NCBI RefSeq assembly: GCF_003355155.1
Contig: NZ_CP031320.1
Span: 3,215,367-3,279,366 of the forward strand
Source: Streptomyces armeniacus
GTDB taxonomy: Bacteria; Actinomycetota; Actinomycetes; Streptomycetales; Streptomycetaceae
Length of the DNA stretch: 64,000 nt
Reading direction: 5' to 3'
The notes under the pieces: model-generated
Seen by the model: only the letters and a program-made list of their open reading frames with translations
The model's database searches: none
Told to the model about the DNA's origin: nothing
Made by a program: the position numbers and the translations under genes
In this document: positions 7,514 to 24,979 of the stretch, piece by piece
Numbering within the stretch: position 1 is the stretch's first letter
Layout: each line of letters opens with the position of its first letter

Positions 7514-9793
7514 TCACCGCGGCCAGCCGCCGTTGCCGTTGCCGCCGCCGTTGCCGCCGCCGTTCTGGCCGCCGCCGATCATGTCCGGCGGAAGGCTCGG
7601 CTCGGGCCAGTCGCCGGGGTCCGGCCAGTCGGGCCGGTCAGGCGGGTCCGGGGGCTTCGGGTCGTCTCGGTCCTCGTCGTCGTCCCGATCCTCGTCCTTC
7701 TTGTCGTCCTTGTCCTTCTTGTCCTTGTCTTCCCGTATCGGCACCGTCGGCAGCTTCGGTGCCGGCTCGCCCCTGAGCGCGCCTGCCATCGCGTCGCGCC
7801 AGATCGGGCCGGGGACGCCGCCGCCGAACACCTTCGGGTGGTACTGCCCGCCGATGGTGATGTCGACCATCCGCCGCTCGTGCTTCGGGTCGCCGACCCA
7901 GACCGCGCCGGCCGCGTTCGGGGTGTAGCCGACGAACCAGGCGGCGTACCGCTCGTCCGACGTACCCGTCTTGCCCGCGCTGTCCCGCCCGCTGAGCCCG
8001 GCCTTCTTGCCGGTGCCGTCCTCGACGACGCCCCTCAGCAGCGAGTTGACGGTCTTCGACGTCCGCTCCGACATCGCGCGCTTGCACGTGGACTTCGGCA
8101 CCCGCAGCGCGTTGCCCTGTGCGTCCGTGATCGACTCGATGGCGATCGGGGTGCAGTGCACGCCGTTGTTGGCGAACGTCGCGTACGCCTCGGCCATCGT
8201 CAGCGGCGACATCTCCTGCACGCCCAGCGTCATCGACGGGACCTGCTCGAGCTGCTTGCCGTCCGACCGCTCCAGGCCCATGCGGTTGGCCATGTCCCGT
8301 ACCGGGCAGAGGCCGATGTCGCTGATCAGCTGGACGAAGTAGGTGTTGACGGAGAGGGCCGTCGCCTCCTTCATCCGGTACGGGCCCTTCTCCGACCGGT
8401 TCTCGTTCGCGACGGTCGAGCCGCTGCCGCTCCACTTCTTTCCGTCGCACATGCTGACCGGGCTCGGGTACGGCATCTCGTACGGCGCCGAGTACTTCTG
8501 GTAGACGCTCGTGCCTCGCTCCAGCGCCGCCGCCGCGACGATCGGCTTGAACGTGGACCCCGGCTGGTAGCCGCTGCCGCCGCCCATGGAGCGGTTGACG
8601 GAGAGGTTGATCTGGGTCTCGTTCTTGCCGAAGCCGTACGGGCGCGACTGCCCCATGCCGAGGATCTTGCCGGTGCCCGGCTCGACGATGCTGACGGCCG
8701 TCGCGACCTGGTCGTCCTGGTTGACGTGGTCCTCTATCGAGTCCTGTACCGACTGCTGCGCCTTCGGGTCCAGGGTCGTCTTGATCGTCAGGCCGCCCTG
8801 GTTCCAGCGCTTGGCCCGGTCCTTCGACGACTTGCCGAACGCCTTGTTGCTGAGGAAGACCTCGCGCACGTAGTCGCAGAAGAAGCCCGCGCCGCTGACT
8901 GCCGTGATGCAGCCGTTCTTCGGCTTGCTGACCTTCAGCCCGAGCGGCTTGTCCTTGGCCGCCTCCGCTTCCTTCCGGCTGATGTCGCCGAGCTGCGCCA
9001 TCCGCTCCAGCACGATGTCGCGGCGCTTCTTGCCCTCGTCCGGGTCGTTGACCGGGTCGTAGCGGCTCGGGGACTGTACGAGCCCGGCCAGCAGGGCGGA
9101 CTGCTCGAGGGTCAGGTCCTTGGCGGAGGTCGAGAAGTACCGCTGGGCCGCGGCCTCGATGCCGTACGCCTGCTGTCCGAAGAAGGTGATGTTGAGGTAG
9201 TTCTCCAGGATCTGCTTCTTGCCGAGCGTCTCCTCGACCTTGATCGCGTACTTCAGCTCGCGGATCTTGCGGCCGATGCCCTTGGCGCCGGACTGCTGCG
9301 TGGCCTCGGCGATCTTCTCCGGGTCGTCGCCCGCCTCCTCGACGAAGACGTTCTTGACGTACTGCTGCGTCAGCGTCGACGCGCCCTGCGTGGTCTCGCC
9401 GGCCTGCCGGTTCTGGTTCAGCGCGCGGAGCACGCCCTTGAGGTCGATGGCGCCGTGGTCGTAGAAGCGCGAGTCCTCGATGGCGATGATGGCCTGCTGC
9501 ATCTCCGCCGAGACGTTCTTGAGGTCGACCACGGTGCGGTCCCGCGAGTAGACCTTGGCGATCTCGTCGCCGTTCACGTCCAGGATGGTGGTGCGCTGGC
9601 TGAGCGGCGGGCGCTTCATGTTGGCGGGGATCTCGTCGAAGCCCTCCACCGAGCCCTTGGCGGCGAGGCCCACCAGGCCCACCGCGGGCAGCGCGATCCC
9701 GGCCAGTACGGCGCCGGCGAGGACGCTCACCCCGACGAACTTCGCGGCCTGTTGGGGGGCGGTCAAGCCGCCGCCCGCGCGCTTCGTAGCCAT
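7514..9793 (-). CDS. Class A penicillin-binding protein (bifunctional transglycosylase/transpeptidase), 759 aa
   Basis: Polymerises lipid II and crosslinks peptidoglycan at the outer face of the membrane. An N-terminal membrane helix (residues about 20-46) is followed by the GT51 domain: catalytic E106 in IEDSRFYDHGA, GASTLTQQYVKN, and RKIRELKYAIKVEETLGKKQ. The transpeptidase boxes are S413-T-F-K416, S481-V-N483 and K608-T-G-T611. The C-terminus from about residue 690 is an unusual tail of Lys/Asp, then Pro/Asp, then Gly/Asn repeats. It corresponds to S. coelicolor SCO3580 and mycobacterial ponA2, which sit beside a whiB-type gene. Here it instead follows the MarP-like gene by 49 bp. A TAGGCT box 7 nt before the ATG suggests its own leaderless promoter. 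Confidence 0.92.
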   Translation of the reverse strand: MATKRAGGGLTAPQQAAKFVGVSVLAGAVLAGIALPAVGLVGLAAKGSVEGFDEIPANMKRPPLSQRTTILDVNGDEIAKVYSRDRTVVDLKNVSAEMQQAIIAIEDSRFYDHGAIDLKGVLRALNQNRQAGETTQGASTLTQQYVKNVFVEEAGDDPEKIAEATQQSGAKGIGRKIRELKYAIKVEETLGKKQILENYLNITFFGQQAYGIEAAAQRYFSTSAKDLTLEQSALLAGLVQSPSRYDPVNDPDEGKKRRDIVLERMAQLGDISRKEAEAAKDKPLGLKVSKPKNGCITAVSGAGFFCDYVREVFLSNKAFGKSSKDRAKRWNQGGLTIKTTLDPKAQQSVQDSIEDHVNQDDQVATAVSIVEPGTGKILGMGQSRPYGFGKNETQINLSVNRSMGGGSGYQPGSTFKPIVAAAALERGTSVYQKYSAPYEMPYPSPVSMCDGKKWSGSGSTVANENRSEKGPYRMKEATALSVNTYFVQLISDIGLCPVRDMANRMGLERSDGKQLEQVPSMTLGVQEMSPLTMAEAYATFANNGVHCTPIAIESITDAQGNALRVPKSTCKRAMSERTSKTVNSLLRGVVEDGTGKKAGLSGRDSAGKTGTSDERYAAWFVGYTPNAAGAVWVGDPKHERRMVDITIGGQYHPKVFGGGVPGPIWRDAMAGALRGEPAPKLPTVPIREDKDKKDKDDKKDEDRDDDEDRDDPKPPDPPDRPDWPDPGDWPEPSLPPDMIGGGQNGGGNGGGNGNGGWPR

Positions 9794-9842
9794 GGTGTGC
9801 AGCCTACGGGGTGGCGGTGCGGGGGCGGCAGGGGTGTCCGGG

Positions 9843-11042
9843 TCACATCGCGCAGCCCTCGCTGTCCACCTGCCGCTCCGCCTTGCGCCCGATCTCGACG
9901 TCCTCCCGCACCTCGTCCGCGGTCAGCGCGTACCCCGTGTCGTCGTCCTCCAGCGACTTGGCGAACACCACCCCGTACACCTCGCCTTCGGGCGTCAGCA
10001 GCGGGCCGCCGGAGTTGCCCTGGCGGATCATGGTGTAGAGAGAGTAGACGTCGCGGCGGACGGTGCCGCGGTGGTAGATGTCCGGGCCGTTGGCATTGAC
10101 ACGGCCGCGTACGCGTGCGGAGCGCACGTCGAAGCCGCCGTTCTCCGGGAAGCCCGCCACGATCGCGCCGTCGCTGCTCGACGCGTCGTCGTCGGCGAAC
10201 TTGAGCGCGGGGGCGTCCAGCCCCGGCACGTCCAGGACGGCGATGTCGCGCTCCCAGTCGTAGAGCACCACCTTCGCGTCGTGCAGCGGGCCCGTGCCGC
10301 CGATCTGCACGGTCGGCTCGTCGACGCCGCCGACGACGTGCGCGTTCGTCATCACCTTCCCGTCGTGGAAGACGAAGCCGGTGCCCTCCAGGACCTTGCC
10401 GCAGCCGGTCGCTGTGCCCACCACCTTGACGATGGACTTCTTGGCGCGGTTCACCACCGGGTCCTTGGCGAGCTTCGGGTCGGGGGCGGGGACGGAGGTG
10501 ATGGGCTCGTTGGAGAACGGCGAGAAGACCTGCGGCAGGCCGTTCTGCGCGAGGATCGAGGAGAAGTCCGCGAACCAGGTGTTGGCCTGCTCCGGCACCA
10601 CCCGCGAGACGCCGTGCAGCACCTTGGAGGCGCGTACCTCCTTGCTCAGCGTCGGCAGCGCCGTGCCCGCCAGCGCGGAGCCGATCAGCCAGGCGACGAG
10701 CAGCATGGCCAGCACGTTGACCAGCGCGCCGCCGGTGGCGTCGAGCGCGCGGGCGGGGGACCAGGTGATGTAGCGGCGCAGCTTGTTGCCGAGGTGCGTG
10801 GTGAACGCCTGCCCGACGGAGGCGCAGACGATGACGAGCGCCACCGCCAGCACGACCCCGAGGGTGCCGGGGGAGGCGTCGTCGGTCACCTCGCCCCAGA
10901 GGACGGGCAGCACGAAGATCGCGATGAGCCCGCCGCCGAGAAAGCCGATCACGGAGAGGATGCCGACGACGAAGCCCTGTCGGTATCCCACGATCGCGAA
11001 CCACACGGCGGCGAGCACGAGAAGTATGTCCAGCACGTTCAC
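9843..11042 (-). CDS. marP: MarP-like membrane serine protease (CvpA domain plus trypsin-like protease)
   Basis: Four hydrophobic helices (residues about 3-20, 28-48, 60-80 and 105-127) form a CvpA/colicin V production domain. A periplasmic-type trypsin fold follows, with catalytic H235 in MTNAHVV, D266 in ERDIAVLDV and S344 in QGNSGGPLL. These positions agree closely with those known for mycobacterial MarP, which supports acid and oxidative stress resistance by processing cell-wall hydrolases. Two Cys flank the protease domain (TGCGKV, and CAM at the very end). The gene heads a minus-strand group with the PBP gene downstream. Function in Streptomyces is inferred from the family. Confidence 0.88.
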   Translation of the reverse strand: MNVLDILLVLAAVWFAIVGYRQGFVVGILSVIGFLGGGLIAIFVLPVLWGEVTDDASPGTLGVVLAVALVIVCASVGQAFTTHLGNKLRRYITWSPARALDATGGALVNVLAMLLVAWLIGSALAGTALPTLSKEVRASKVLHGVSRVVPEQANTWFADFSSILAQNGLPQVFSPFSNEPITSVPAPDPKLAKDPVVNRAKKSIVKVVGTATGCGKVLEGTGFVFHDGKVMTNAHVVGGVDEPTVQIGGTGPLHDAKVVLYDWERDIAVLDVPGLDAPALKFADDDASSSDGAIVAGFPENGGFDVRSARVRGRVNANGPDIYHRGTVRRDVYSLYTMIRQGNSGGPLLTPEGEVYGVVFAKSLEDDDTGYALTADEVREDVEIGRKAERQVDSEGCAM

Positions 11043-11087
11043 CGCATCAGCCTCGCAGAGATCTCGCCGCGCACGGAGGTCACCGTC

Positions 11088-11795
11088 TCACGCGTGCCAG
11101 TCGAGTGAGACGAGCTTCCCCCGGTCCCACGGTCGTTCCCACCCCGCGAAGTGCAGGATGCGGTCGATCACACCCGCCGTGAAGCCCCACACCAGCGCCG
11201 AGCCGACGGTGAACGCCGGGCCGCGGTGCCCGCTCGGGTGCGCGGTCGTGGCGCGGTTGGCCGGGTCCGCCAGCTCGTCGACGGGCACGGTGAAGACCCG
11301 CGCCGTCTCGGCCGGATCGACGGGCGCCACGGGCGTACGGCTGCGCCACCAGCCCAGCACCGGTGTCACGACGAAGTCGCTCACCGGGATGTACAGCGCG
11401 GGCAGCGTCGCGAAGACCTGCACGCCCGCCGGGTCCAGGCCGGTCTCCTCCTCCGCCTCCCGCAGCGCGGCGCGCAGCGGCCCGTCACCGGCCGGATCGC
11501 CGTCCTCCGGATCGAGCGCGCCTCCCGGGAACGAGGGCTGGCCCGCGTGCGAACGGAGGCTGCTCGACCGCTCCATCAGCAGCAGCTCCGGGCCGTGCGG
11601 GCCGTCACCGAACAGGATCAGCACGGCGGACGGCCGCCCCTCGCCGCCGGGCGGCGGCAGGAAACGGCTGAGCTGCGCGGGCTCGACCGTACGCGCGGCC
11701 CGTTCGACGGGCTCCAGCCAGCCGGGCAGTCCTTCGCTGCTGACGACGACGGGGCCGTCGCTGTGCCGCTGGTGGCTCGCGTGGGTCACACGCAC
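11088..11795 (-). CDS. Nudix hydrolase, CoA pyrophosphatase-like, 235 aa
   Basis: The Nudix box is visible as FPGGALDPEDGD...PLRAALREAEEETGLDP, with the catalytic REAEEETG. Just before it, SSSLRSHAGQPSFPGGALD matches the LLTKRS-x-x-LRxHxGQ-x-x-FPGG motif of the CoA-type Nudix proteins (NudL/YeaB) that cleave coenzyme A or related dinucleotides. GTG 11795 is the first start in frame; a later start near GLPGWLEPV is possible. It lies 45 bp upstream of marP on the same strand, an arrangement also known in mycobacteria. The substrate is inferred. Confidence 0.85.
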   Translation of the reverse strand: MRVTHASHQRHSDGPVVVSSEGLPGWLEPVERAARTVEPAQLSRFLPPPGGEGRPSAVLILFGDGPHGPELLLMERSSSLRSHAGQPSFPGGALDPEDGDPAGDGPLRAALREAEEETGLDPAGVQVFATLPALYIPVSDFVVTPVLGWWRSRTPVAPVDPAETARVFTVPVDELADPANRATTAHPSGHRGPAFTVGSALVWGFTAGVIDRILHFAGWERPWDRGKLVSLDWHA

Positions 11796-11856
11796 CCCCG
11801 GCGGAGGCGTACGGACCGGGCGCCGGTCTGCGGCGTACGTACGCGGGCGGCGCCGG

Positions 11857-12810
11857 TCACCGGCCCTCCAGCCTCGGTGCGGGCCGGCCGGGATAGTCCG
11901 GCGGCGGCTTGAGCCGCTGGCCGGGCTGGCCGCCCAGCTCGTACTTCAGCAGCTTCTTCGCCTTGTCCGGATCCAGCTCGCCCTCGCCGTACGACGGGCA
12001 GAGCGGCGCCAGCGCGCACGCGCCGCACGCGGGCTTGCGCGAGTGGCAGACGCGGCGGCCGTGGAAGATGATCCGGTGCGAGAGCATCGTCCACTCGCTC
12101 TTCGGGAAGATCTCGGCGATCTCCGCCTCGACCTTGTCCGGGTCCTCCTGCTCGGTCCAGCCGAAGCGGCGCACGAGCCGCCCGAAGTGAGTGTCCACGG
12201 TCAGGCCGGGGACGCCGAAAGCGTTGCCCAGCACCACGTTCGCCGTCTTGCGGCCGACGCCCGGCAGCGACACGAGGTCGGCGAGCTTCCCCGGCACCTC
12301 GCCCCCGAACCGGTCGCGGATCGCGACGGACAGCCCCTGCACGGCCTTCGTCTTGGCGCGGAAGAACCCGGTGGGGCGGAGCAGGTCCTCCAGCACCTCC
12401 GGATCGGCCGCGGCCACGTCCTCGGGGGTGGGGTACGCGGCGAAGAGGGCGGGCGTCGTCTGGTTCACGCGCAGATCGGTGGTCTGGGCGGACAGCACGG
12501 TCGCGATGAGCAGCTGGAACGGGTTCTCGAAGTCGAGCTCCGGGTGCGCGTACGGATACAGCTCGGCGAGCTCGCGGTTCATACGGCGGGCGCGGCGCAC
12601 CATCGCCAGCCGCGACTCCGGCTTGGCCGCGGCCTTCGTCCCGGCCGCCTGCTTCACCTCGGTCTTCGCGGCGGTCTTCGCCGGGGCCTTCTTCGGGGCC
12701 GCCCGCTTCCCCGTCGCCTTCTTCGCCGCCCCCTCGCCCGTACCCTTTGCCGCTTTCGTGCTCTTCGCGGGCGTGTGTTCGCCCACAGCGGAATCTCCAG
12801 ATGTGGTCAC
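11857..12810 (-). CDS. nth: Endonuclease III, with a Lys/Ala-rich N-terminal extension
   Basis: Base-excision repair DNA glycosylase/AP lyase for oxidised pyrimidines. The HhH-GPD core carries [14 protein letters not shown] with catalytic K188 and TVDTHFGRL with D206. The iron-sulfur loop has C255-x6-C262-x2-C265-x5-C271. The first ~65 residues are an extra, histone-H1-like tail ([20 protein letters not shown]) that probably binds DNA non-specifically; such tails are frequent in Streptomyces DNA enzymes, and topA here has one at its C-terminus. It lies 61 bp upstream of the Nudix gene and diverges from crp. Start at ATG 12810. Confidence 0.92.
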
Positions 12811-13039
12811 CCGCCCGGCCCCCTTCCTCCGCGCTCTACCGGCCTATCGGACACTCGGCCAGCGTAGAGGGGACGACTGACATTCGCCCCGCACGTAGGC
12901 GATTCGCGGCCCAATCGGCCCCCTGACGTACGGCCCGCGCGGCGAGTGCGTCAAACTTGTGACTGATCGCACTGTTTTACCGTCCGGCATCATGGGGTGC
13001 CACAGGGACCCCATGGGCAGGTCGACAAGGAGAGAACTC

Positions 13040-13714
13040 GTGGACGACGTTCTGCGGCGCGCCCCGCTCTTCGCGGCGCTCGATGAGGAGCAGGCCGCTG
13101 AGCTGCGCGCCTCCATGACCGAGACAACGCTCGCCCGCAGCGACGCGCTGTTCCACGAAGGCGACCCCGGGGACCGGCTCTACGTCGTCACCGAGGGCAA
13201 GGTGAAGCTGCACCGCACCTCGCCCGACGGCCGCGAGAACATGCTGGCGGTGCTCGGGCCGGGTGAGCTCATCGGCGAGCTCTCCCTCTTCGACCCGGGA
13301 CCGCGTACGGCCACGGCCTCCGCGCTCACCGAGGTCAAGCTGCTCGGGCTGGGCCACGGCGACCTCCAGCCCTGGCTGAACGTGCGCCCCGAGGTGGCCT
13401 CCGCGCTGCTCCGGGCCATCGCCCGCCGGCTGCGCCGCACCAACGACTCGATGTCCGACCTGGTCTTCTCCGATGTGCCGGGCCGCGTCGCCAAGCAGCT
13501 CCTCGACCTGTCGCGCCGCTTCGGCGTGCAGTCGGAGGAGGGCATCCACGTGGTGCACGACCTCACCCAGGAGGAGCTGGCCCAGCTGGTCGGCGCCTCC
13601 CGCGAGACCGTCAACAAGGCGCTCGCCGACTTCGCCGGCCGCGGCTGGCTGCGGCTGGAGGCGCGCGCGGTGATCCTGCTGGACATCGAGCGGCTGGCGA
13701 AGCGCAGCCGCTGA
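13040..13714 (+). CDS. crp: Crp/Fnr-family cAMP receptor protein, 224 aa
   Basis: Global transcription regulator that controls spore germination, development and antibiotic production in Streptomyces. The N-terminal cyclic-nucleotide-binding domain shows ALFHEGDPGDRLYVV and GPGELIGELSLFDPGPRTA with the phosphate-binding cassette. The C-terminal winged helix contains LTQEELAQLVGASRETVNKAL. I chose GTG 13040 because AAGGAGAG ends 5 nt upstream and the 224-residue length equals that of S. coelicolor Crp; the frame is open to 12959. It is divergent from nth across about 230 bp. The protein is nearly identical to what I remember of the S. coelicolor sequence. Confidence 0.95.
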   Translation: MDDVLRRAPLFAALDEEQAAELRASMTETTLARSDALFHEGDPGDRLYVVTEGKVKLHRTSPDGRENMLAVLGPGELIGELSLFDPGPRTATASALTEVKLLGLGHGDLQPWLNVRPEVASALLRAIARRLRRTNDSMSDLVFSDVPGRVAKQLLDLSRRFGVQSEEGIHVVHDLTQEELAQLVGASRETVNKALADFAGRGWLRLEARAVILLDIERLAKRSR

Positions 13715-13724
13715 CCCGCGCACG

Positions 13725-13757
13725 GCGCCCGCCACGGCACGCGGCACAGGCGGGCGC
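13725..13757. terminator. Hairpin between convergent crp and MBL-fold genes
   Basis: GCGCCCGCC (13725-13733) pairs with GGCGGGCGC (13749-13757), a 9-bp stem with a 15-nt loop in the 58-bp convergent gap. A plausible bidirectional terminator. Confidence 0.4.
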
Positions 13758-13772
13758 GCCGCACGAGCCCGG

Positions 13773-14606
13773 TCAGGACAGCCCGTGCTCGTGCAGGTAG
13801 TCCAGCTGCGCCCGTACGGACTGCTCGGCCGCGGGCCACAGCGACCGGTCCACGTCCGCGTACACGTGCGCGACGACCTCGGCCGCCGTACGGTGGCCGT
13901 TCTCGACCGCCGTCTCCACCTGCGCGAGCCGGTTCGCGCGGTGCGCGAGGTAGAACTCGACGGCGCCCTGCGCGTCGGACAGCACCGGCCCGTGGCCGGG
14001 CAGCAGCGTCCCGACGCCCTCGTCCACGGTCAGCGCGCGCAGCCGGCGCAGCGCGTCCAGGTAGTCGCCCAGCCGCCCGTCCGGGTGCGCCACGACGGTC
14101 GTACCCCGCCCGATGACCGTGTCGCCGGTCAGCAGCGCCCCGTCCGCGGGCAGGTGCAGGCACACGGAGTCGGCGGTGTGTCCGGGCGTCGGTACGACGT
14201 ACAGCTCCAGGCCGCCGGCCGTGATCACGTCGCCCTCGGCCAGCCCGCCCCCGCCGTGGTGCCGGAAGGCGGGGTCCACCGCCCGTACGGGCGCGCCGGT
14301 CAGCTCCGCGAACCGGGCCAGGCCGTCCGAGTGGTCCGGGTGCCCGTGCGTGAGTACGGTCAGCGCGACGCGGCGGCCGTCCCGGGCGACGGTGTCGAGG
14401 ACGTTCCGCAGGTGCGTCTCGTCGAGCGGGCCCGGGTCGACGACGACGGCGAGGTCGGAGTCCGGCTCGGCGACGATCCAGGTGTTCGTGCCGTCCAGCG
14501 TCATCGCGGACGGGTTGGGCGCCAGCACGCACCGGGCACGTGCCGTGCCCGAACCGTCGATGGGCCCGTCGAGGGGGCGTCCGGGCAGGGCGGTTGCTTC
14601 GGTCAC
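13773..14606 (-). CDS. MBL-fold metallohydrolase, 277 aa
   Basis: Metallo-beta-lactamase fold with the zinc site LTVLTHGHPDHSDG (HxHxDH), then VPTPGHTADSVCLH and LLTGDTVIGRG, and LLPGHGPVL near the C-terminus. It resembles the glyoxalase-II-like and LACTB2-like hydrolases that follow Nudix and RidA genes in actinobacteria (Rv3677c in M. tuberculosis). I chose GTG 14606 because it gives the conserved N-terminus VTEATALPG and overlaps the upstream gene by 4 bp (GTGA), which implies translational coupling. Substrate unknown. Confidence 0.87.
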   Translation of the reverse strand: MTEATALPGRPLDGPIDGSGTARARCVLAPNPSAMTLDGTNTWIVAEPDSDLAVVVDPGPLDETHLRNVLDTVARDGRRVALTVLTHGHPDHSDGLARFAELTGAPVRAVDPAFRHHGGGGLAEGDVITAGGLELYVVPTPGHTADSVCLHLPADGALLTGDTVIGRGTTVVAHPDGRLGDYLDALRRLRALTVDEGVGTLLPGHGPVLSDAQGAVEFYLAHRANRLAQVETAVENGHRTAAEVVAHVYADVDRSLWPAAEQSVRAQLDYLHEHGLS

Positions 14607-15493
14607 GGGGCGACTCGCTTCGTGAATTCGTCGTGGCCAGGCCAGCTCAGTACGATCTCGCCCGCCTCCAGGCGGGCCCGGGCGAGGACGGGTGTCAGAT
14701 CCCGGTCCGCGGCGGCGGCCAGCGCGTCGGCAGCGTGGCCGTACGGCTGGAGCTGCCGCAGCGTGGCGATGGTCGGGGGCATCATCATCAGCTCTCCGCG
14801 GTCGTAGCCCGCGGCGGCCTCGGCCGCGCCGGTCCAGACCGTACGGTCGGCCTCGGTCGAGGCGTTGCGTGTGCGCTGCCCCTCGGGGAGCACCGCCACG
14901 AAGAACCAGGTGTCGAAGCGGCGCCGCTCGAACTCCGGCGTGATCCAGCGGGCCCATGCCCCGAGCAGGTCGCTGCGGAGCAGCAGGCCGCGGCGGGCGA
15001 GGAAGTCGGCGAACGGCAGCTCGCGGGCGACCAGCGCGGCCCGGTCCGTCTCCCAGTCCGCGCCGGTGGTGTCGGCGACGACGGTCTCCGCGTCCGGTCC
15101 GGCGAGCAGCACGCCCGCCTCCTCGAAGGTCTCGCGTACGGCGGCGCACACGATGCCCTGGGCCGCCGCCTCGCCCGTACCGAGCCGTGCCGCCCACTCG
15201 GCGCGCGACGGGCCCGCCCAGCCGAGCTCGCGCTCCGTACCGGGGGCCCCGGCCCCGTCCGTCTCGTCGCGCGGGTCGACCGAGCCGCCCGGGTACGCGT
15301 ACGCGCCCCCGGCGAACGCCATGGAGGAACGGCGGCGCAGCATGTGCACCTCGGGGGGCGCGTCCGCGCGGTCGCGGAGCAGCATCACCGTCGCGGCGCG
15401 GCGCGGGGCGACGGGGGTGAGCTCGCCGGCGGCCAGGGCGCGGATACGCGCGGGCCACTCGGCGGGATACCACTGGCCGTTCGTAGTGGACAT
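14603..15493 (-). CDS. Nudix hydrolase, 296 aa
   Basis: Cytosolic Nudix protein of the long NUDT19/NudL-like type. MLRRRSSMAFAGGAYAYPGG precedes the box, and the catalytic part AVRETFEEAGVLL lies about 45 residues later, with an acidic insertion between. The C-terminal part (LLGAWARWITPEFERRRFDT) is typical of this actinobacterial subfamily. Its stop overlaps the GTG of the MBL-fold gene, so the two are co-translated. The substrate (a nucleoside diphosphate or acyl-CoA derivative) cannot be read from the sequence. Confidence 0.85.
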   Translation of the reverse strand: MSTTNGQWYPAEWPARIRALAAGELTPVAPRRAATVMLLRDRADAPPEVHMLRRRSSMAFAGGAYAYPGGSVDPRDETDGAGAPGTERELGWAGPSRAEWAARLGTGEAAAQGIVCAAVRETFEEAGVLLAGPDAETVVADTTGADWETDRAALVARELPFADFLARRGLLLRSDLLGAWARWITPEFERRRFDTWFFVAVLPEGQRTRNASTEADRTVWTGAAEAAAGYDRGELMMMPPTIATLRQLQPYGHAADALAAAADRDLTPVLARARLEAGEIVLSWPGHDEFTKRVAP

Positions 15494-15580
15494 GAACGGA
15501 TGCTACGGGGCGCCGCGCCGATGTTCGAGAGCGCTCGGCGCCGCGCCCCACCCGCTACGGGCACTGCGCCCGTCAGTCCG

Positions 15581-16048
15581 TCAGTCCGTCAGCTCGACCA
15601 CGAGCTCGACCTCGACCGGCGCGTCCAGCGGCAGCGCCGCCACGCCCACCGCGCTGCGCGCGTGCCGGCCCTTCTCGCCCAGCAGCTCGCCGAGCAGCTC
15701 GCTGGCGCCGTTGAGTACGCCCGGCTGCCCGGTGAAGTCCGGCGCGGAGGCCACGAATCCGGTGACCTTGACCACCTGTGCGATCCGGTCCAGATCACCG
15801 GCCACCGTCTTGACGGCGGCAAGCGCGTTCAGCGCGCAGATCCGCGCCAGCTCCTTGGCACGCTCGGGCGAGACGTCGGCGCCGACCTTGCCCGCCGCGG
15901 GCAGTTCGCCGTTCACGAACGGGACCTGGCCTGCGGTGTACACGTAAACCCCGGTCCGCAGCGCCGGCACGTACGCGCCCGCCGGAGCCGGCACCTCCGG
16001 CAGGCTCAGGCCCAGCTCGGCGAGCTTCAGCTCGACCTTCCCGCTCAT
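15581..16048 (-). CDS. RidA/YjgF family protein, 155 aa
   Basis: Member of the Rid family, which deaminates reactive enamine/imine intermediates such as those from PLP enzymes. Visible are TAGQVPFVNGELPAAGKVG, a central NALAAVKTVAGDLDRIAQVVKVTGFVAS, and a C-terminal PVEVELVVEL. It is longer than the 130-residue norm, as in the YjgH-like/Rv3678c subgroup, so the classical catalytic Arg may not be conserved. ATG 16048 overlaps the stop of the DUF4177 gene upstream (ATGA), indicating a coupled pair. Confidence 0.87.
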   Translation of the reverse strand: MSGKVELKLAELGLSLPEVPAPAGAYVPALRTGVYVYTAGQVPFVNGELPAAGKVGADVSPERAKELARICALNALAAVKTVAGDLDRIAQVVKVTGFVASAPDFTGQPGVLNGASELLGELLGEKGRHARSAVGVAALPLDAPVEVELVVELTD

Positions 16049-16206
16049 GCCTGCTTCTCCCGCTTGAGGTACGCCACCAGCTGTTCCGAGTTGGTCGGGC
16101 CGGGGACGACCTGGACGAGCTCCCAGCCGTCCTCTCCCCAGGTGTCCAGGATCTGCTTGGTGGCGTGCACGAGCAGCGGCACGGTCGCGTATTCCCACTT
16201 CGTCAT
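16045..16206 (-). CDS. DUF4177 small protein, 53 aa
   Basis: Reading from ATG 16206 on the minus strand gives MTKWEYATVPLLVHATKQIL followed by DTWGEDGWELVQVVPG and ends LKREKQA. The WEY...LN/DxWGxxGWELV pattern is the DUF4177 signature. The stop overlaps the RidA start by 4 bp. The mycobacterial equivalent (Rv3678A) sits in the same place, so the small gene is real and conserved. Function unknown; it probably works with the RidA protein. Confidence 0.85.
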   Translation of the reverse strand: MTKWEYATVPLLVHATKQILDTWGEDGWELVQVVPGPTNSEQLVAYLKREKQA

Positions 16207-16269
16207 GGGACGACCCTAAGCCCTTTCCCCGGGCGGCCTTCGCCGCGCCCGACGGTTTAGGCTCCAAAC

Positions 16270-17325
16270 GTGAGCAGGCTGCACGTAGTCACGGGCAAGG
16301 GCGGCACCGGAAAGACGACGGTCGCCGCCGCACTGGCGCTGGCCCTGGCAGACGAGGGGCGCCGCACGCTCCTGGTCGAGGTCGAGGGGCGGCAGGGCAT
16401 CGCGCAGCTCTTCGAGACGGAGGCGCTGCCGTACGAGGAGCGCAAGATCGCCGTCGCGCACGGCGGCGGCGAGGTCTACGCGCTGGCGATCGACGCCGAA
16501 CGAGCCCTGCTCGACTACCTCCAGATGTTCTACAAGCTGGGCAGCGCGGGCCGCGCCCTCCGCAAGCTCGGCGCGATCGACTTCGCCACCACCATCGCCC
16601 CCGGCCTCCGCGACGTCCTGCTGACCGGCAAGGCGTGCGAGGCCGTACGGCGCAAGGACAAGCGCGGCCGCCGGGTCTACGACGCGGTCGTCATGGACGC
16701 GCCGCCCACCGGGCGCATCACGCGCTTCCTCGGTGTGAACGACGAGGTCGCCGGACTGGCCAAGGTCGGACCCGTGCACAACCAGGCGCAGGCGGTGATG
16801 CGGGTGCTCAAGTCACCGGAGACGGCCGTGCACCTGGTCACGCTGCTGGAGGAGATGCCGGTGCAGGAGACCGTCGACGGCGCCGCCGAACTGCGCGCCG
16901 CCGGGCTGCCGGTGGGCAGCGTGCTCGTCAACATGGTCCGCCCGCCGCTCCTCGACGACGACCTGGCGGACACCCGTACGGAGGCCGGCGACCGTACGGA
17001 GGCCGACGACCGTACGGAGGGGGATGCCCGTACGGAAAGTGACGCCCGTACGGAGAACGACATCCGTACGGAGCTCGCCGCGGCCCTCTCCCGCGCCGGC
17101 CTCGGCGGCGCCCAGCGCGGCGGCCGTGCCGAACGCCTCGTCGGCCCGCTGCTGCGGCAGGGGTGCGAACACGCGGAACGGGTCGCGCTGGAGCGCGCGC
17201 AGCGCGCGGAGATCGACCGGCTGGGACTGCCGGTGTACGAGCTGGAGTTGCTCACGGACGGCGGCGACCTGGCGGGCCTGTACGGGCTCTCGGCCGCGCT
17301 GCGCGAACAGGGGGTGCACAAGTGA
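16270..17325 (+). CDS. ArsA-like (GET3/ArsA family) ATPase, first of a pair, 351 aa
   Basis: SIMIBI-class ATPase with a P-loop GKGGTGKTT at residues 9-17, the switch-like VVMDAPPTGRI, and a C-terminal VYELELLTDGGDL. In mycobacteria the paired homologues Rv3679/Rv3680 form a complex that protects against reactive by-products of glycerol metabolism, so an arsenite role should not be assumed. Starts at GTG 16270, divergent from the DUF4177 gene by 63 bp. Residues about 236-271 carry a six-unit RTE repeat that relatives lack. Its stop overlaps the GTG of the second ATPase (GTGA). Confidence 0.85.
   Translation: MSRLHVVTGKGGTGKTTVAAALALALADEGRRTLLVEVEGRQGIAQLFETEALPYEERKIAVAHGGGEVYALAIDAERALLDYLQMFYKLGSAGRALRKLGAIDFATTIAPGLRDVLLTGKACEAVRRKDKRGRRVYDAVVMDAPPTGRITRFLGVNDEVAGLAKVGPVHNQAQAVMRVLKSPETAVHLVTLLEEMPVQETVDGAAELRAAGLPVGSVLVNMVRPPLLDDDLADTRTEAGDRTEADDRTEGDARTESDARTENDIRTELAAALSRAGLGGAQRGGRAERLVGPLLRQGCEHAERVALERAQRAEIDRLGLPVYELELLTDGGDLAGLYGLSAALREQGVHK
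16975..17082 (+). repeat. In-frame 18-nt tandem repeat, six units, inside the first ArsA-like gene
   Basis: CGTACGG occurs at 16975, 16993, 17011, 17029, 17047 and 17065, exactly 18 nt apart. Each unit encodes a six-residue RTE-x-x-D/A block. The repeat keeps the reading frame. Confidence 0.9.
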
Positions 17326-18641
17326 CCTCGGACCTGGAGGACGTGCCCGCCCTGGACATCGACCCGCTGCTGGACGACCCCGGCACCCGGATTGTCGTCT
17401 GCTGCGGCGCCGGCGGCGTCGGCAAGACGACCACCGCCGCGGCGCTCGGCGTACGCGCGGCGGAACGCGGCCGCAGGGCGGTCGTGCTCACCATCGACCC
17501 GGCGCGCAGGCTGGCCCAGTCGATGGGCCTGACGGAGCTGGACAACACCCCGCGCGAGGTCGCCGGAGTGGACCGCTCCGCGGGCGGCCGGCTGCACGCG
17601 ATGATGCTCGACATGAAGCGCACCTTCGACGAGATCGTCGAGGCGCACGCGGACCCGGAGCGGGCCCGCGCCATCCTGGAGAACCCGTTCTACGAGTCGC
17701 TGTCGGCCGGCTTCGCGGGCACCCAGGAGTACATGGCGATGGAGAAGCTGGGACAGCTGCAGGCCCGCGACGAGTGGGACCTGATCATCGTCGACACTCC
17801 GCCCAGCCGGTCCGCGCTGGACTTCCTGGACGCGCCGAAGCGCCTCGGCTCGTTCCTGGACGGCACGTTCATCCGGCTGCTGTCCGGGCCGGCCAAGGCG
17901 GGCGGCCGTGCGGGCATGAAGTTCGTGCACCTGGGGATGGCCGGGCTGTCGATGTTCACGGGCGCGCTCAACAAGCTGCTGGGCGCCGGGCTGCTACGGG
18001 ACGTGCAGACGTTCGTGGCGGCCATGGACACGATGTTCGGCGGCTTCCGCACGCGCGCCGACGCCACGTACCGGCTGCTCCAGGCGAAGGGCACGGCGTT
18101 TCTGGTGGTCGCCGCTCCGGAACGGGACGCGCTGCGCGAGGCGGCGTACTTCGTGGAGCGGCTCGCCGCCGACCACATGCCGCTCGCCGGGCTCGTGCTG
18201 AACCGCGTACACGGCAGCGACGCCGGACGCCTCAGCGCGGAACGGGCGCTGGCGGCGGCGGAGAGCCTCGAGGAAGGCGGCGTCGCGGACCGCGGGCGCA
18301 CCACCGCTGAACGGCCCGACCAGGCGGAACAGCCGCAGGAGCCGGAGCAGTTCGCGGGGACAGAGCAGCCGGCGCGGGACAAGGCGAACCAGGACGCCGC
18401 CCAGGACAAGGCGGACCGGCTGGCCGCTGCGCTGCTGCGACTGCACGCCGAACGCATGCGCGTGCTCGCGCGCGAACGCCGCACGCGGGACCGCTTCGCG
18501 GCGCTGCACCCGGAGGTGCCCGTTACGGAGGTGGCCGCGCTGCCCGGAGACGTGCACGACCTGACAGGGCTGCGGGCGATCGGCGAACGGCTCGCGGCAC
18601 GGTCGGATGGTTCAGATGGTCAGCCCGCCGCCACGGCGTAG
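17322..18641 (+). CDS. ArsA-like ATPase, second of a pair, 439 aa
   Basis: Partner of the preceding ATPase, with a P-loop GAGGVGKTT at residues about 29-37, LTIDPARRLAQSMGL after it (typical of ArsA/GET3 proteins), and LIIVDTPPSRSALDFLDAP as the switch II/Walker B region. A Glu/Gln/Ala-rich linker at about residues 325-370 separates a helical end. I chose GTG 17322, which overlaps the upstream stop by 4 bp, so the pair is translationally coupled and probably makes a heterocomplex. The last 22 bp overlap the end of wblA on the other strand. Confidence 0.85.
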   Translation: MTSDLEDVPALDIDPLLDDPGTRIVVCCGAGGVGKTTTAAALGVRAAERGRRAVVLTIDPARRLAQSMGLTELDNTPREVAGVDRSAGGRLHAMMLDMKRTFDEIVEAHADPERARAILENPFYESLSAGFAGTQEYMAMEKLGQLQARDEWDLIIVDTPPSRSALDFLDAPKRLGSFLDGTFIRLLSGPAKAGGRAGMKFVHLGMAGLSMFTGALNKLLGAGLLRDVQTFVAAMDTMFGGFRTRADATYRLLQAKGTAFLVVAAPERDALREAAYFVERLAADHMPLAGLVLNRVHGSDAGRLSAERALAAAESLEEGGVADRGRTTAERPDQAEQPQEPEQFAGTEQPARDKANQDAAQDKADRLAAALLRLHAERMRVLARERRTRDRFAALHPEVPVTEVAALPGDVHDLTGLRAIGERLAARSDGSDGQPAATA

Positions 18642-18970
18642 CTGTCGTACTCCTCCCTCACCGAGTCGAGGTCCATGGGCAGTCCGCCCGTGTCCCGCTC
18701 GTACTCCGTGCGCGCTGTCTCGAGCAGCCGCCGCCACGAGGTGACCGTAGGGCGGCGGCGCAGCAGCGCTCTCCGCTCCCGCTCGGTCATTCCGCCCCAC
18801 ACGCCGAACTCCACCCGGTTGTCCAGGGCGTCCGCCAGGCACTCCGTGCGCACCGGACACCCGGTGCAGACCGCCTTGGCGCGGTTCTGGGCCGCCCCTT
18901 GTACGAATAGTTCGTCCGGATCGGTAGTGCGGCAGGCTGCCTGTGCACTCCAGTCGGTTACCCAGCTCAT
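18620..18970 (-). CDS. wblA: WhiB-like iron-sulfur transcription factor WblA, 116 aa
   Basis: WhiB-family protein that binds a [4Fe-4S] cluster and acts with the principal sigma factor. In Streptomyces, WblA represses antibiotic production and supports sporulation. The four cluster cysteines are C13, C35, C38 and C44 (AACRTT and CTGCPVRTEC). The WhiB turn EFGVWGGMTERERRALLRRR follows, then the basic DNA-binding tail. The sequence up to YER matches my memory of S. coelicolor SCO3579; the C-terminal tail GGLPMDLDSVREEYDSY is acidic and longer. It is preceded by a long non-coding gap, and convergent with the ArsA-like gene, whose 3' end it overlaps. Confidence 0.92.
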   Translation of the reverse strand: MSWVTDWSAQAACRTTDPDELFVQGAAQNRAKAVCTGCPVRTECLADALDNRVEFGVWGGMTERERRALLRRRPTVTSWRRLLETARTEYERDTGGLPMDLDSVREEYDSYAVAAG

Positions 18971-19677
18971 AGCCGGTGCCGTCCTCTCCCGAATCGAGGC
19001 TCCCCCACGGCGGCAAGCGGCATATTCACCGTTGCCAGTTGAGGACGTTACGGAAGGCAGGCAGGGTGCAACACCCCCGCGGGGCCCAATCTTGAATGGC
19101 CCGAACGGACTATGGGTGCGCGCCAGATCACCCAACGGAGTGACGCGGTGATGAACAGGGCGTTTCCGGGTGTACAGGACGGTGCGAAGGTTGTGGCGGC
19201 CGCGGATCAGCTGTGGGAGCAGCGTGAAGAGGGCGTACTCCTGAGGAGTATGCGCTCAAGCCTATGCGAACAGTTGCGCCCCTGTCCGGCGAATGACGCA
19301 CTCCCGTGCGCCACCCTTTCGCGACCCCTGCGCGGGTCCGTGCGCCGGTTCACCCCCGCGTGTGCCGCAGGCGTGCCCCGAACCAGCGCGCGCGGCGATG
19401 GAGGATGTGCGGGATGCCGAGGGTGGGATTCCGCTCATGTCGGTGAAGGATCCCTTCCACGCGCTGTGCGGAGAGCCGCTCCCGTGGAGCGGTGCGCCTG
19501 CGTGCCACGTCACGATAGTCGTGCGTCCAGCCCATACCCCGGACTCTGCCCCTGCCTCAAGGTCAGTAACCGCGCGGCCTTCACTCGATTGGCCTATGCG
19601 GCGGGCACATGTTCGATACCGTACGCGGTCTCCCGTACGCGCTCCGCGGCCCCCGGCAGGTCAGCCGTCCGGCACCG
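18971..19677. promoter_or_regulatory. Long non-coding region upstream of wblA, with a palindrome at 19236-19250
   Basis: About 700 bp without a credible gene: the frames that stay open have poor third-position GC and no recognisable product. A long upstream region fits wblA, which is heavily regulated. TACTCCT-G-AGGAGTA (19236-19250) is a perfect 7-bp inverted repeat, flanked by GC/GC that extends the symmetry, and could be an operator. One end of the apparent marP-wblA inversion must also lie here. Confidence 0.4.
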
Positions 19678-20616
19678 TCAGCGGTCCGGCTCCGGGTCCC
19701 GCAGCCAGTCGATCAGCTCGCCCGAGAACGCCGCCGGGTCCTCCTCGTGCGGGAAGTGCCCGAGTCCGTCGAACAGCCGCCAGCGGTAAGGCGCTTCCAC
19801 GTACTTCCCCGATCCGGCCGCGCTACGCGTCCGCAGCACCGGATCGAGCGAACCGTGCAGATGCAGCGTCGGCACCCGTACCGGCCGCTTCATCCGGCGG
19901 TTGAACTGGATGCCGTCCGGCCGCGCCATCGACCGCACCATCCAGCGGTACGGCTCGACCGAGCAGTGCGCCGTCGACGGGATGCACATCGCCCGCCGGT
20001 ACGCCGGCAGCGCGGCGTCGTCCTGTTCCAGCTGCGCGCGCTTCGGCCCCGACCAGTCCCGGATCAGCCGCCCCACCAAGGCGCCGTCGTCCGCGACGAG
20101 TTGACGCTCCGGCAGCCACGGCCGCTGGAACCCCCAGATGTACGAGCCGGCCGCCGTCTGCCGTACGTCCCCCAGCATCGCCGCCCGCCAGCGCCGCGGG
20201 TGCGGCATCGAGGCCACCGCCAGCCGCCGGATCAGCTTCGGGCGCATCACGGCCGCCGTCCACGCCAGATAGCCGCCCAGGTCGTGCCCGACCAGCGCCG
20301 CGTCCGGCTCGCCGAGCGAGCGGATGACGCCGGTGACGTCGAGCGCGAGGTTGGCCGGGTCGTACCCGCGCGGCGTACGGTCGCTGCCCCCCACGCCGCG
20401 CAGGTCCATCGCGACGGCGCGGTAGCCCGCCCCGGCCAGCGCGGTCAGCTGGTCCCGCCAGGTCCACCAGAACTGCGGGAACCCGTGCAGCAGCAGCACC
20501 AGCGGCCCCTCGCCCGTCTCGGCGATGTGGAACCTCGCCCCGTTGGCCGCCACGTCCCGGTGGATCCAGGGCCCTTGGACTCGTACGACCTCGGCGGAGC
20601 TGTCGGGGAGCGTCAT
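19678..20616 (-). CDS. Alpha/beta hydrolase, epoxide-hydrolase-like, 312 aa
   Basis: Alpha/beta-hydrolase with the oxyanion motif LLLHGFPQFWWTWR, the nucleophile elbow VGHDLGG carrying Asp112 rather than Ser, and a late GLGHFPHEEDP for the catalytic His. An Asp nucleophile with HGFP points to the epoxide hydrolase or haloalkane dehalogenase class; mycobacterial ephE occupies the same neighbourhood. Starts at ATG 20616, only 2 bp after the stop of the holin-like gene, so both are in one minus-strand operon. The substrate is not known. Confidence 0.85.
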   Translation of the reverse strand: MTLPDSSAEVVRVQGPWIHRDVAANGARFHIAETGEGPLVLLLHGFPQFWWTWRDQLTALAGAGYRAVAMDLRGVGGSDRTPRGYDPANLALDVTGVIRSLGEPDAALVGHDLGGYLAWTAAVMRPKLIRRLAVASMPHPRRWRAAMLGDVRQTAAGSYIWGFQRPWLPERQLVADDGALVGRLIRDWSGPKRAQLEQDDAALPAYRRAMCIPSTAHCSVEPYRWMVRSMARPDGIQFNRRMKRPVRVPTLHLHGSLDPVLRTRSAAGSGKYVEAPYRWRLFDGLGHFPHEEDPAAFSGELIDWLRDPEPDR

Positions 20617-20618
20617 GG

Positions 20619-21089
20619 CTACGAGCGTGTCACAGCGGCCGGCTTGTCCATGTCCACACCGCGTCGCGCGTCCGCCCCATCGGTGACGGCGCGGGGGTGC
20701 GGCTTGACGCTCGACAGTACGGCCGCCGACTCCTTGGCCGAGGCGATGGTCTTACGCGGCGGCTCGATCCGCTTGAGCACGACCTTGGCCGCCAGCCCGA
20801 GCAGCGCCGCCAGCACGATGAACGCGCCTCCCACGATCAGGAACGACCACGCGAGCCCGAGCCCCAGGTTGTGGATGCCGTACGCCGCGGCGAAGCTCAG
20901 CACCGGCAGCGAGAAGAGGACCAGGACGGCGGCCACGATGAGGGCACCACTGCCGATCGCCCCGCGCTTCACGTCCTGCCGGATCTCGGCCTTGGCCAGC
21001 GCGATCTCGTCGTGAACGAGTGCGGACAGCTCGGTGGTGGCCGAGGCGACCAGCTGGCCGAGGCTGCGGCCGTCGTCGGCTGCGCTCAT
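20619..21089 (-). CDS. Phage-holin-family-like membrane protein (DUF1469 type), 156 aa
   Basis: An N-terminal amphipathic segment (SLGQLVASATTELSALVHDE, then IALAKAEIRQD) is followed by two hydrophobic helices (residues about 45-72 and 78-103) and a charged cytosolic tail. This is the pattern of the actinobacterial phage-holin-like family; despite the name it is chromosomal and not phage-associated. It is placed between nhaA and the hydrolase, as in relatives. Function unknown, probably a membrane accessory protein. Confidence 0.8.
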   Translation of the reverse strand: MSAADDGRSLGQLVASATTELSALVHDEIALAKAEIRQDVKRGAIGSGALIVAAVLVLFSLPVLSFAAAYGIHNLGLGLAWSFLIVGGAFIVLAALLGLAAKVVLKRIEPPRKTIASAKESAAVLSSVKPHPRAVTDGADARRGVDMDKPAAVTRS

Positions 21090-22790: not shown

Positions 22791-24755
22791 TCAGTCCTCG
22801 CTGGCCGCGCCCGGCAGTTTGGCCTGGATGAGGTCCATCACCGACGAGTCGGTGAGCGTGGTGACGTCGCCCAGCTCGCGGTTCTCGGCCACGTCACGCA
22901 GCAGCCGCCGCATGATCTTCCCGGAGCGGGTCTTCGGCAGCTCCGCGACCGGCAGGATCCGCTTCGGCTTGGCGATCGGCCCGAGCTGCTTCGCCACGTG
23001 CTGGCGCAGCTCCTCGACGAGGCCCTCCGCCGCCGCGGCCTCGCCGCGCAGGATGACGAACGCACAGATCGCCTGCGTCGTCTGCGGATCGGTGGCGCCG
23101 ACGACCGCCGCCTCGGCCACCCTCGGGTGCGCGACGAGCGCCGACTCGACCTCGGTGGTGGAGATGTTGTGCCCGGACACGAGCATCACGTCGTCCACCC
23201 GGCCCAGCAGCCAGACGTCGCCGTCCTCGTCCTTCTTGGCGCCGTCGCCCGCGAAGTACCGGCCCTCGAACCGCGACCAGTACGTGTCCAGGAACCGCTG
23301 GTCGTCGCCCCAGATCGTACGGAGCATCGACGGCCACGGCTCCGTGAGCACCAGATAGCCGCCACCGCCGTCCGGCACCTCCTGCGCCTCGTCGTCCACG
23401 ACGGTGGCGGAGATCCCGGGCAGCGGCACCTGCGCCGAGCCCGGCTTGGCCGCGGTCACGCCCGGCAGCGGGCTGATCATGATGCCGCCGGTCTCCGTCT
23501 GCCACCAGGTGTCCACGACGGGCGTACGGTCGGCGCCGATGTGGTGCCTGTACCAGATCCACGCCTCCGGGTTGATCGGCTCGCCGACCGAGCCCAGGAT
23601 CCGCAGCGAGCTCAGGTCGAACTTCGCGGGGATCTCGTCGCCCCACTTCATGCACGCGCGGATCGCGGTCGGCGCGGTGTAGAGGATCGTGACGCGGTAC
23701 TTCTCGACGATCTCCCACCAGCGGCCCTTGTGCGGCGTGTCCGGGGTGCCCTCGTAGAGCACCTCGGTCGCGCCGTTCGCGAGCGGCCCGTAGACGATGT
23801 ACGAGTGGCCGGTCACCCAGCCGACGTCGGCGGTGCACCAGAAGACGTCGGTCTCCGGCTTCAGGTCGAAGACGGCGTGGTGGGTGTAGGCGACCTGGGT
23901 CAGATAGCCGCCCGTGGTATGCAGGATGCCCTTCGGCTTACCGGTCGTGCCGGAGGTGTAGAGGATGAACAGGGGGTGCTCCGCGTCGAACTGCTCCGGA
24001 GTGTGCTCCTCCGGCTGCCGGTCGACCAGGTCGTGCCACCACACGTCGCGGCCCTCGGTCCAGGCGATGTCCTGCTGCCCGGTGCGCCGTACGACCAGCA
24101 CGTTCCGTACGCCGCCGGTGCCCGGACGCGTCAGCGCCTCGTCCACGGCGGGCTTGAGCGCGCTGGCGGCGCCCTTGCGGTAGCCGCCGTCCGCGGTGAT
24201 GACGACGCGGGCGTCGGCGTCCTCGATACGGGTGGCGAGCGCGTCCGCGGAGAAGCCGCCGAAGACCACCGAGTGCGGGGCGCCGATACGCGCGCAGGCG
24301 AGCATCGCGACGACCGTCTCCGGGATCATCGGCATGTAGATCGCCACCCGGTCGCCGGCCGCGACACCGAGCTCGGTCAGCGCGTTGGCGGCCTGGGAGA
24401 CCTCGCGCTGGAGGTCGGCGTAGCTGATCGTACGGGTGTCGCCGGGCTCGCCCTCGAAGTGGAGCGCGACCCGGTCGCCGTTGCCGGCCTCGACGTGGCG
24501 GTCCACGCAGTTGTACGCGACGTTCAGCTTGCCGTCGGCGAACCATTTGGCGAAGGGCGGGTTCGACCAGTCCAGCGTCTCGGCCGGTTCCGTGCCCCAG
24601 CTGAGCCGGCGCGCCTGCTCGGCCCAGAAACCCAGCCGGTCGGTCTTCGCCTGCTCGTAGGCCGAAGCCTGCACGTTCGCGTGGGCGGCCAGTTCGGCGG
24701 GCGGCTCGAACCTCCGCTCCTCCTTGAGCAGATTGGCCAGGCTTTCGTTGCTCAC
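22791..24755 (-). CDS. acs: Acetyl-CoA synthetase, 654 aa
   Basis: Converts acetate, ATP and CoA to acetyl-CoA in the cytosol. Motifs in order: the P-loop-like LFILYTSGTTGKPKG, DVGWVTGHSYIVYGPL, DTWWQTETGG, RYFAGDGAKKDEDG and PKTRSGKIMRR, whose Lys is the known acetylation-controlled catalytic residue. I prefer GTG 24755 (VSNESLANLL) over ATG 24767 because GGGAG lies 5 nt before the GTG and overlaps the alternative start. It lies upstream of nhaA on the same strand but ends at its own strong terminator. Confidence 0.95.
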   Translation of the reverse strand: MSNESLANLLKEERRFEPPAELAAHANVQASAYEQAKTDRLGFWAEQARRLSWGTEPAETLDWSNPPFAKWFADGKLNVAYNCVDRHVEAGNGDRVALHFEGEPGDTRTISYADLQREVSQAANALTELGVAAGDRVAIYMPMIPETVVAMLACARIGAPHSVVFGGFSADALATRIEDADARVVITADGGYRKGAASALKPAVDEALTRPGTGGVRNVLVVRRTGQQDIAWTEGRDVWWHDLVDRQPEEHTPEQFDAEHPLFILYTSGTTGKPKGILHTTGGYLTQVAYTHHAVFDLKPETDVFWCTADVGWVTGHSYIVYGPLANGATEVLYEGTPDTPHKGRWWEIVEKYRVTILYTAPTAIRACMKWGDEIPAKFDLSSLRILGSVGEPINPEAWIWYRHHIGADRTPVVDTWWQTETGGIMISPLPGVTAAKPGSAQVPLPGISATVVDDEAQEVPDGGGGYLVLTEPWPSMLRTIWGDDQRFLDTYWSRFEGRYFAGDGAKKDEDGDVWLLGRVDDVMLVSGHNISTTEVESALVAHPRVAEAAVVGATDPQTTQAICAFVILRGEAAAAEGLVEELRQHVAKQLGPIAKPKRILPVAELPKTRSGKIMRRLLRDVAENRELGDVTTLTDSSVMDLIQAKLPGAASED

Positions 24756-24979
24756 GACTGCTCCCATTCCCGGGTGTCCGATGTGTCCCGGCGCCTAGCT
24801 CATCAGCCGGTGTGCCTCGTGACAAGGGTTCCTGCGGAAAATTGGTTTAGACCTGTCGAACCGGCGTCGGTCAGGATGTAACGCATCACCATCCTCCTTC
24901 CAAGTACGGGGTGAACGCAGGACCGAGGACGGGAGTGCTGCCGGGCGGCCCGGCCCGGCGGTGAGCCCGGCCTTCAGCG

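Follow-up and report, generated by a model that had tools for sequence, protein, structure and literature searches.

The stretch analysed here (the window) covers 64,000 nucleotides of Streptomyces armeniacus within one 8.08-Mb contig. It carries a block of genes running from marP to wblA that is flipped relative to both flanks, with its internal order retained, and a single flip of about nine kilobases in one small Streptomyces group is supported as the event accounting for the data. On the + strand, the genes read class A penicillin-binding protein (PBP) (-), marP (-), Nudix (-), nth (-), crp (+), metallo-beta-lactamase (MBL) (-), ridA (-), two ArsA-type ATPases (+), wblA (-), a small open reading frame (ORF) (-), ephE-like (-), holin-like (-), Na+/H+ antiporter (-) and acs (-) (Table 1). 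This gene content confirms a preliminary description in which the PBP gene adjoins marP, wblA stands beside the ephE-like hydrolase gene and the internal genes keep their order; the 49 bp given there for the marP-PBP gap (9794-9842) are exact.

The inverted order is rare. The comparison started from the best 80 of the 244 MarP relatives found among GTDB species genomes (79 from Streptomyces and one from [Kitasatospora] papulosa) and is skewed to near relatives because these are the best matches to the MarP of the window. More genomes and 40 stretches from genus, family, order and class genomes were added, giving 145 distinct marP loci once the loci of the window itself and 10 duplicates had been taken out. 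The small ORF or ephE lies convergent behind marP in 135 of the 145 loci and the PBP gene lies there co-directionally in three, the window being excluded; the marP side is undecided in seven (four with less than 2 kb behind marP and three with more but no recognised neighbour). Similarly, PBP and wblA are divergent, with starts less than 1.5 kb apart, in 77 of the 79 loci where both genes were found, the two exceptions (L002 and L004) being inverted. None of the 40 added stretches has the inverted order, five of them being undecided on the marP side (L135, L138, L139, L141 and L146). The block is thus inverted relative to other actinobacteria, as had been proposed, wherever both sides are readable in family, order and class genomes. 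That proposal drew on the gene orders of S. coelicolor and Mycobacterium tuberculosis, which serve here as background. Many Streptomyces genomes also encode a second MarP-like protein (44-49% identity, among the matches listed), which is not found in the genome of the window.

Four genomes carry the inversion: that of the window, L002, S. gossypii (L003) and S. oceani (L004). All four have intact flanks and both junctions, and they form one clade in three trees of 86 taxa, in which the outgroups and the sister lineage, S. abyssalis, have the other order. These data support the single inversion put forward in the preliminary description. The window by itself is one assembly and its order might reflect an assembly error; as the three other assemblies also place PBP behind marP, have wblA next to the small ORF and ephE, and group with the window in one clade, the misassembly that the preliminary description wished to see excluded is negligibly probable. 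An ancestral status of the window order, with a change in most other lineages, is just as improbable: no point in its favour was found, and the other order is present in S. abyssalis, in the 135 loci and in the more distant genomes wherever readable. The inversion is an old event in a very old, shared gene neighbourhood. Two of the carriers show local peculiarities. S. gossypii has about 2.8 kb of extra sequence between crp and nth. In S. oceani, the marP-PBP gap reaches 869 bp and contains an N and an apparent duplicate of the 3' portion of marP; this is likely a scaffold join.

The breakpoints, initially placed within 9794-9842 and 18971-19677, can be narrowed to 9807-9842 and 19297-19349. 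The left interval shows no similarity above shuffles to either ancestral gap. The right one contains a stem-loop following the small ORF (-21.1 kcal/mol, computed without a shuffle control) that may shield wblA from ephE read-through. Inspection of both breakpoints for inverted repeats, as had been advised, found none at the ends: no repeat joining both gaps exceeds shuffles in the window, S. gossypii, S. oceani or the uninverted S. abyssalis, and the 25 longest of the 213 listed pairs include none. A reversible switch driven by repeats or a recombinase is thus very improbable, at least as far as repeats are concerned, a recombinase gene not having been searched for; moreover, the four carriers vary in their gap sequences but not in orientation.

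One of the two cuts would have fallen inside the promoter-like region of the gene for PBP, an enzyme of cell-wall building, and parted the halves of that region. The half that stayed with PBP is a -10-like hexamer: TANNNT occurs 6-8 nt before the PBP ATG in 70/70 non-inverted and 4/4 inverted genomes, and no Shine-Dalgarno-like core was found before this ATG in any of them (0/70 and 0/4). Given this -10, some 7 nt ahead of the ATG, and the lack of a Shine-Dalgarno, the PBP gene fits the pattern of a predicted leaderless promoter. The putative upstream half, TGTCCGGCGAATGA, was orphaned at the other end of the segment; it has its sole match in the window and in the genome at this place, and its homology scores 29.2 against a shuffle maximum of 17.2. 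The undivided arrangement, CGGACA-N17-19-TANNNT, is found upstream of PBP in 40 of the 70 non-inverted genomes, among them S. abyssalis, when 0.04 would be expected by shuffling. As the cut would part the two halves, a regulatory effect would probably fall on PBP.

The developmental switch gene wblA, in turn, kept its leader, which has the look of an extended regulatory leader: among 81 leaders, 131 of 252 alignment columns are at least 95% identical across the genus. In a passage of PMC4021200, an AdpA site is listed for S. lividans wblA at -135. The window has the string of this site at 19097-19106, and 57 of the 81 leaders contain it, S. gossypii being among those without it. The preliminary description had suggested that the regulation of both genes may have changed; the expected change would bear mainly on PBP, whose promoter-like region seems to be split, and probably not on wblA, which retained its conserved leader and an upstream promoter-like element.

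Several observations weigh against this proposal. The wblA-side element of S. oceani is barely above shuffles (17.0 versus 16.4). In S. gossypii, the old block agrees with 9 of the 19 positions that precede the PBP -10 (the 99th percentile by chance being 9), so that the half may have been duplicated or regained there. A simple consensus scan reported no promoter or terminator in 18900-19700. Lastly, the block is absent from 30 of the 70 non-inverted genomes and is therefore not indispensable. In these 30 genomes (e.g., L056, L042 and L029), the PBP -10 is the same but another sequence, in many cases with ACGGATTAGGCT, precedes it, suggesting that promoters have turned over independently.

The inversion might also be real but neutral for regulation, the -10 being sufficient for PBP and the lost block dispensable, a reading that we consider a serious possibility, if a little short of an even chance. 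It agrees with the 30 genomes that lack the block and have the -10, with the -10 and spacing retained in all four carriers, and with wblA leaders that are 85-88% identical to the consensus of the 81 in the carriers versus 86% in S. abyssalis (median 96%). Against it, the block is retained in the 40 other genomes, including the sister lineage. SCO3580 of S. coelicolor presumably occupies the corresponding place next to wblA, judging from gene order, its orthology being matched by position and not by sequence. It is described as a PBP of the spore-wall complex and as a listed target of sigma-E and BldC (PMC4282423, PMC10771440, PMC3123327), and a list in one of these sources includes it among genes likely under both regulators (PMC10771440); as far as that list goes, a control that can be lost therefore exists.

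The conserved small ORF stayed with ephE. Its neighbours are ephE and wblA in the four carriers; in S. abyssalis and S. pathocidini, it lies between marP and ephE. Of 141 loci having both marP and ephE, counted with duplicates, 126 gave a match to it. Its variation is greatest at third codon positions, and it matches no Pfam or NCBIfam family.

Table 1. Features of the window around the inverted segment (positions are those of the window).
Feature	Position	Strand	Remarks
Class A PBP	7514..9793	-	Pfam Transgly and Transpeptidase; ponA2/SCO3580 position; directly behind marP
-10-like TAGGCT	9801..9806	-	7 nt before PBP ATG; promoter-like half that stayed with PBP
Left breakpoint interval	9807..9842		between PBP -10 and marP stop codon
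Inverted segment	9809..19296		about 9.5 kb, marP to wblA and wblA upstream region; outer limits approximate
marP	9843..11042	-	NCBIfam MarP equivalog, 496.9 bits (cut-off 250)
nth			TIGR01083, 242 (cut-off 211.7)
crp	12959..13714	+	
First ArsA-type ATPase	16270..17325	+	
Second ArsA-type ATPase	17163..18641	+	NCBIfam BagB, 636.6 (cut-off 521)
wblA	18620..18970	-	WhiB family, 116 aa; Pfam Whib 6.1e-26 (on shorter reading of frame)
wblA leader	18971..19151	-	kept with wblA; local alignment 147 (shuffle maximum 14.3)
Promoter-like CGGACA-N18-TAGGCT	19259..19288	-	faces wblA; not reported by simple consensus scan
TGTCCGGCGAATGA	19283..19296	+	orphan upstream half of ancestral PBP promoter-like region
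Right breakpoint interval	19297..19349		bounded by PBP-wblA gap homology and by small ORF
Small ORF	19350..19535	-	61 aa, conserved; MGWTHDYRD... GIPRILRRRARW..ARLRH
ephE-like alpha/beta hydrolase	19678..20616	-	flanks right junction
Holin-like	20619..21089	-	
acs	22791..24767	-	

Conservation of the neighbourhood extends from Streptomyces to other orders of the class, so a lone lineage with the flip amounts to a natural experiment. It could reveal whether the divergent region shared by wblA and PBP is needed by both genes and whether a leaderless PBP start works on the -10 alone, and it offers an old inversion whose cut sites remain placeable. Tentatively, and with some doubt, a natural cut through a conserved back-to-back promoter may have freed PBP, as a spore-wall and envelope-stress enzyme, from envelope-stress and developmental inputs and made it the last gene of the marP run, wblA receiving the whole intergenic control region; in this clade, the connection of wall synthesis with development would then be rewired.

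Compared with the conserved actinobacterial acs-ephE-marP-nth-crp-MBL-bagAB-whiB4/wblA-ponA2 neighbourhood, the window shares the genes, their internal order and the flanks in place, whereas its marP-to-wblA block is flipped, so that PBP now follows marP, and wblA follows ephE and the small ORF. Unlike SCO3580, the PBP gene of the window would have lost the upstream portion of its promoter-like region. Like small non-repeat inversions of bacterial chromosomes, this one has two intergenic cuts, a whole segment and no terminal inverted repeats; it differs in that one cut would lie within a back-to-back promoter-like region that is conserved, and is still placeable to tens of bases. Events of this kind are ordinary, but the place is unusually conserved, and what makes this one interesting is that its breakpoint is readable and that it would represent a natural promoter cut.
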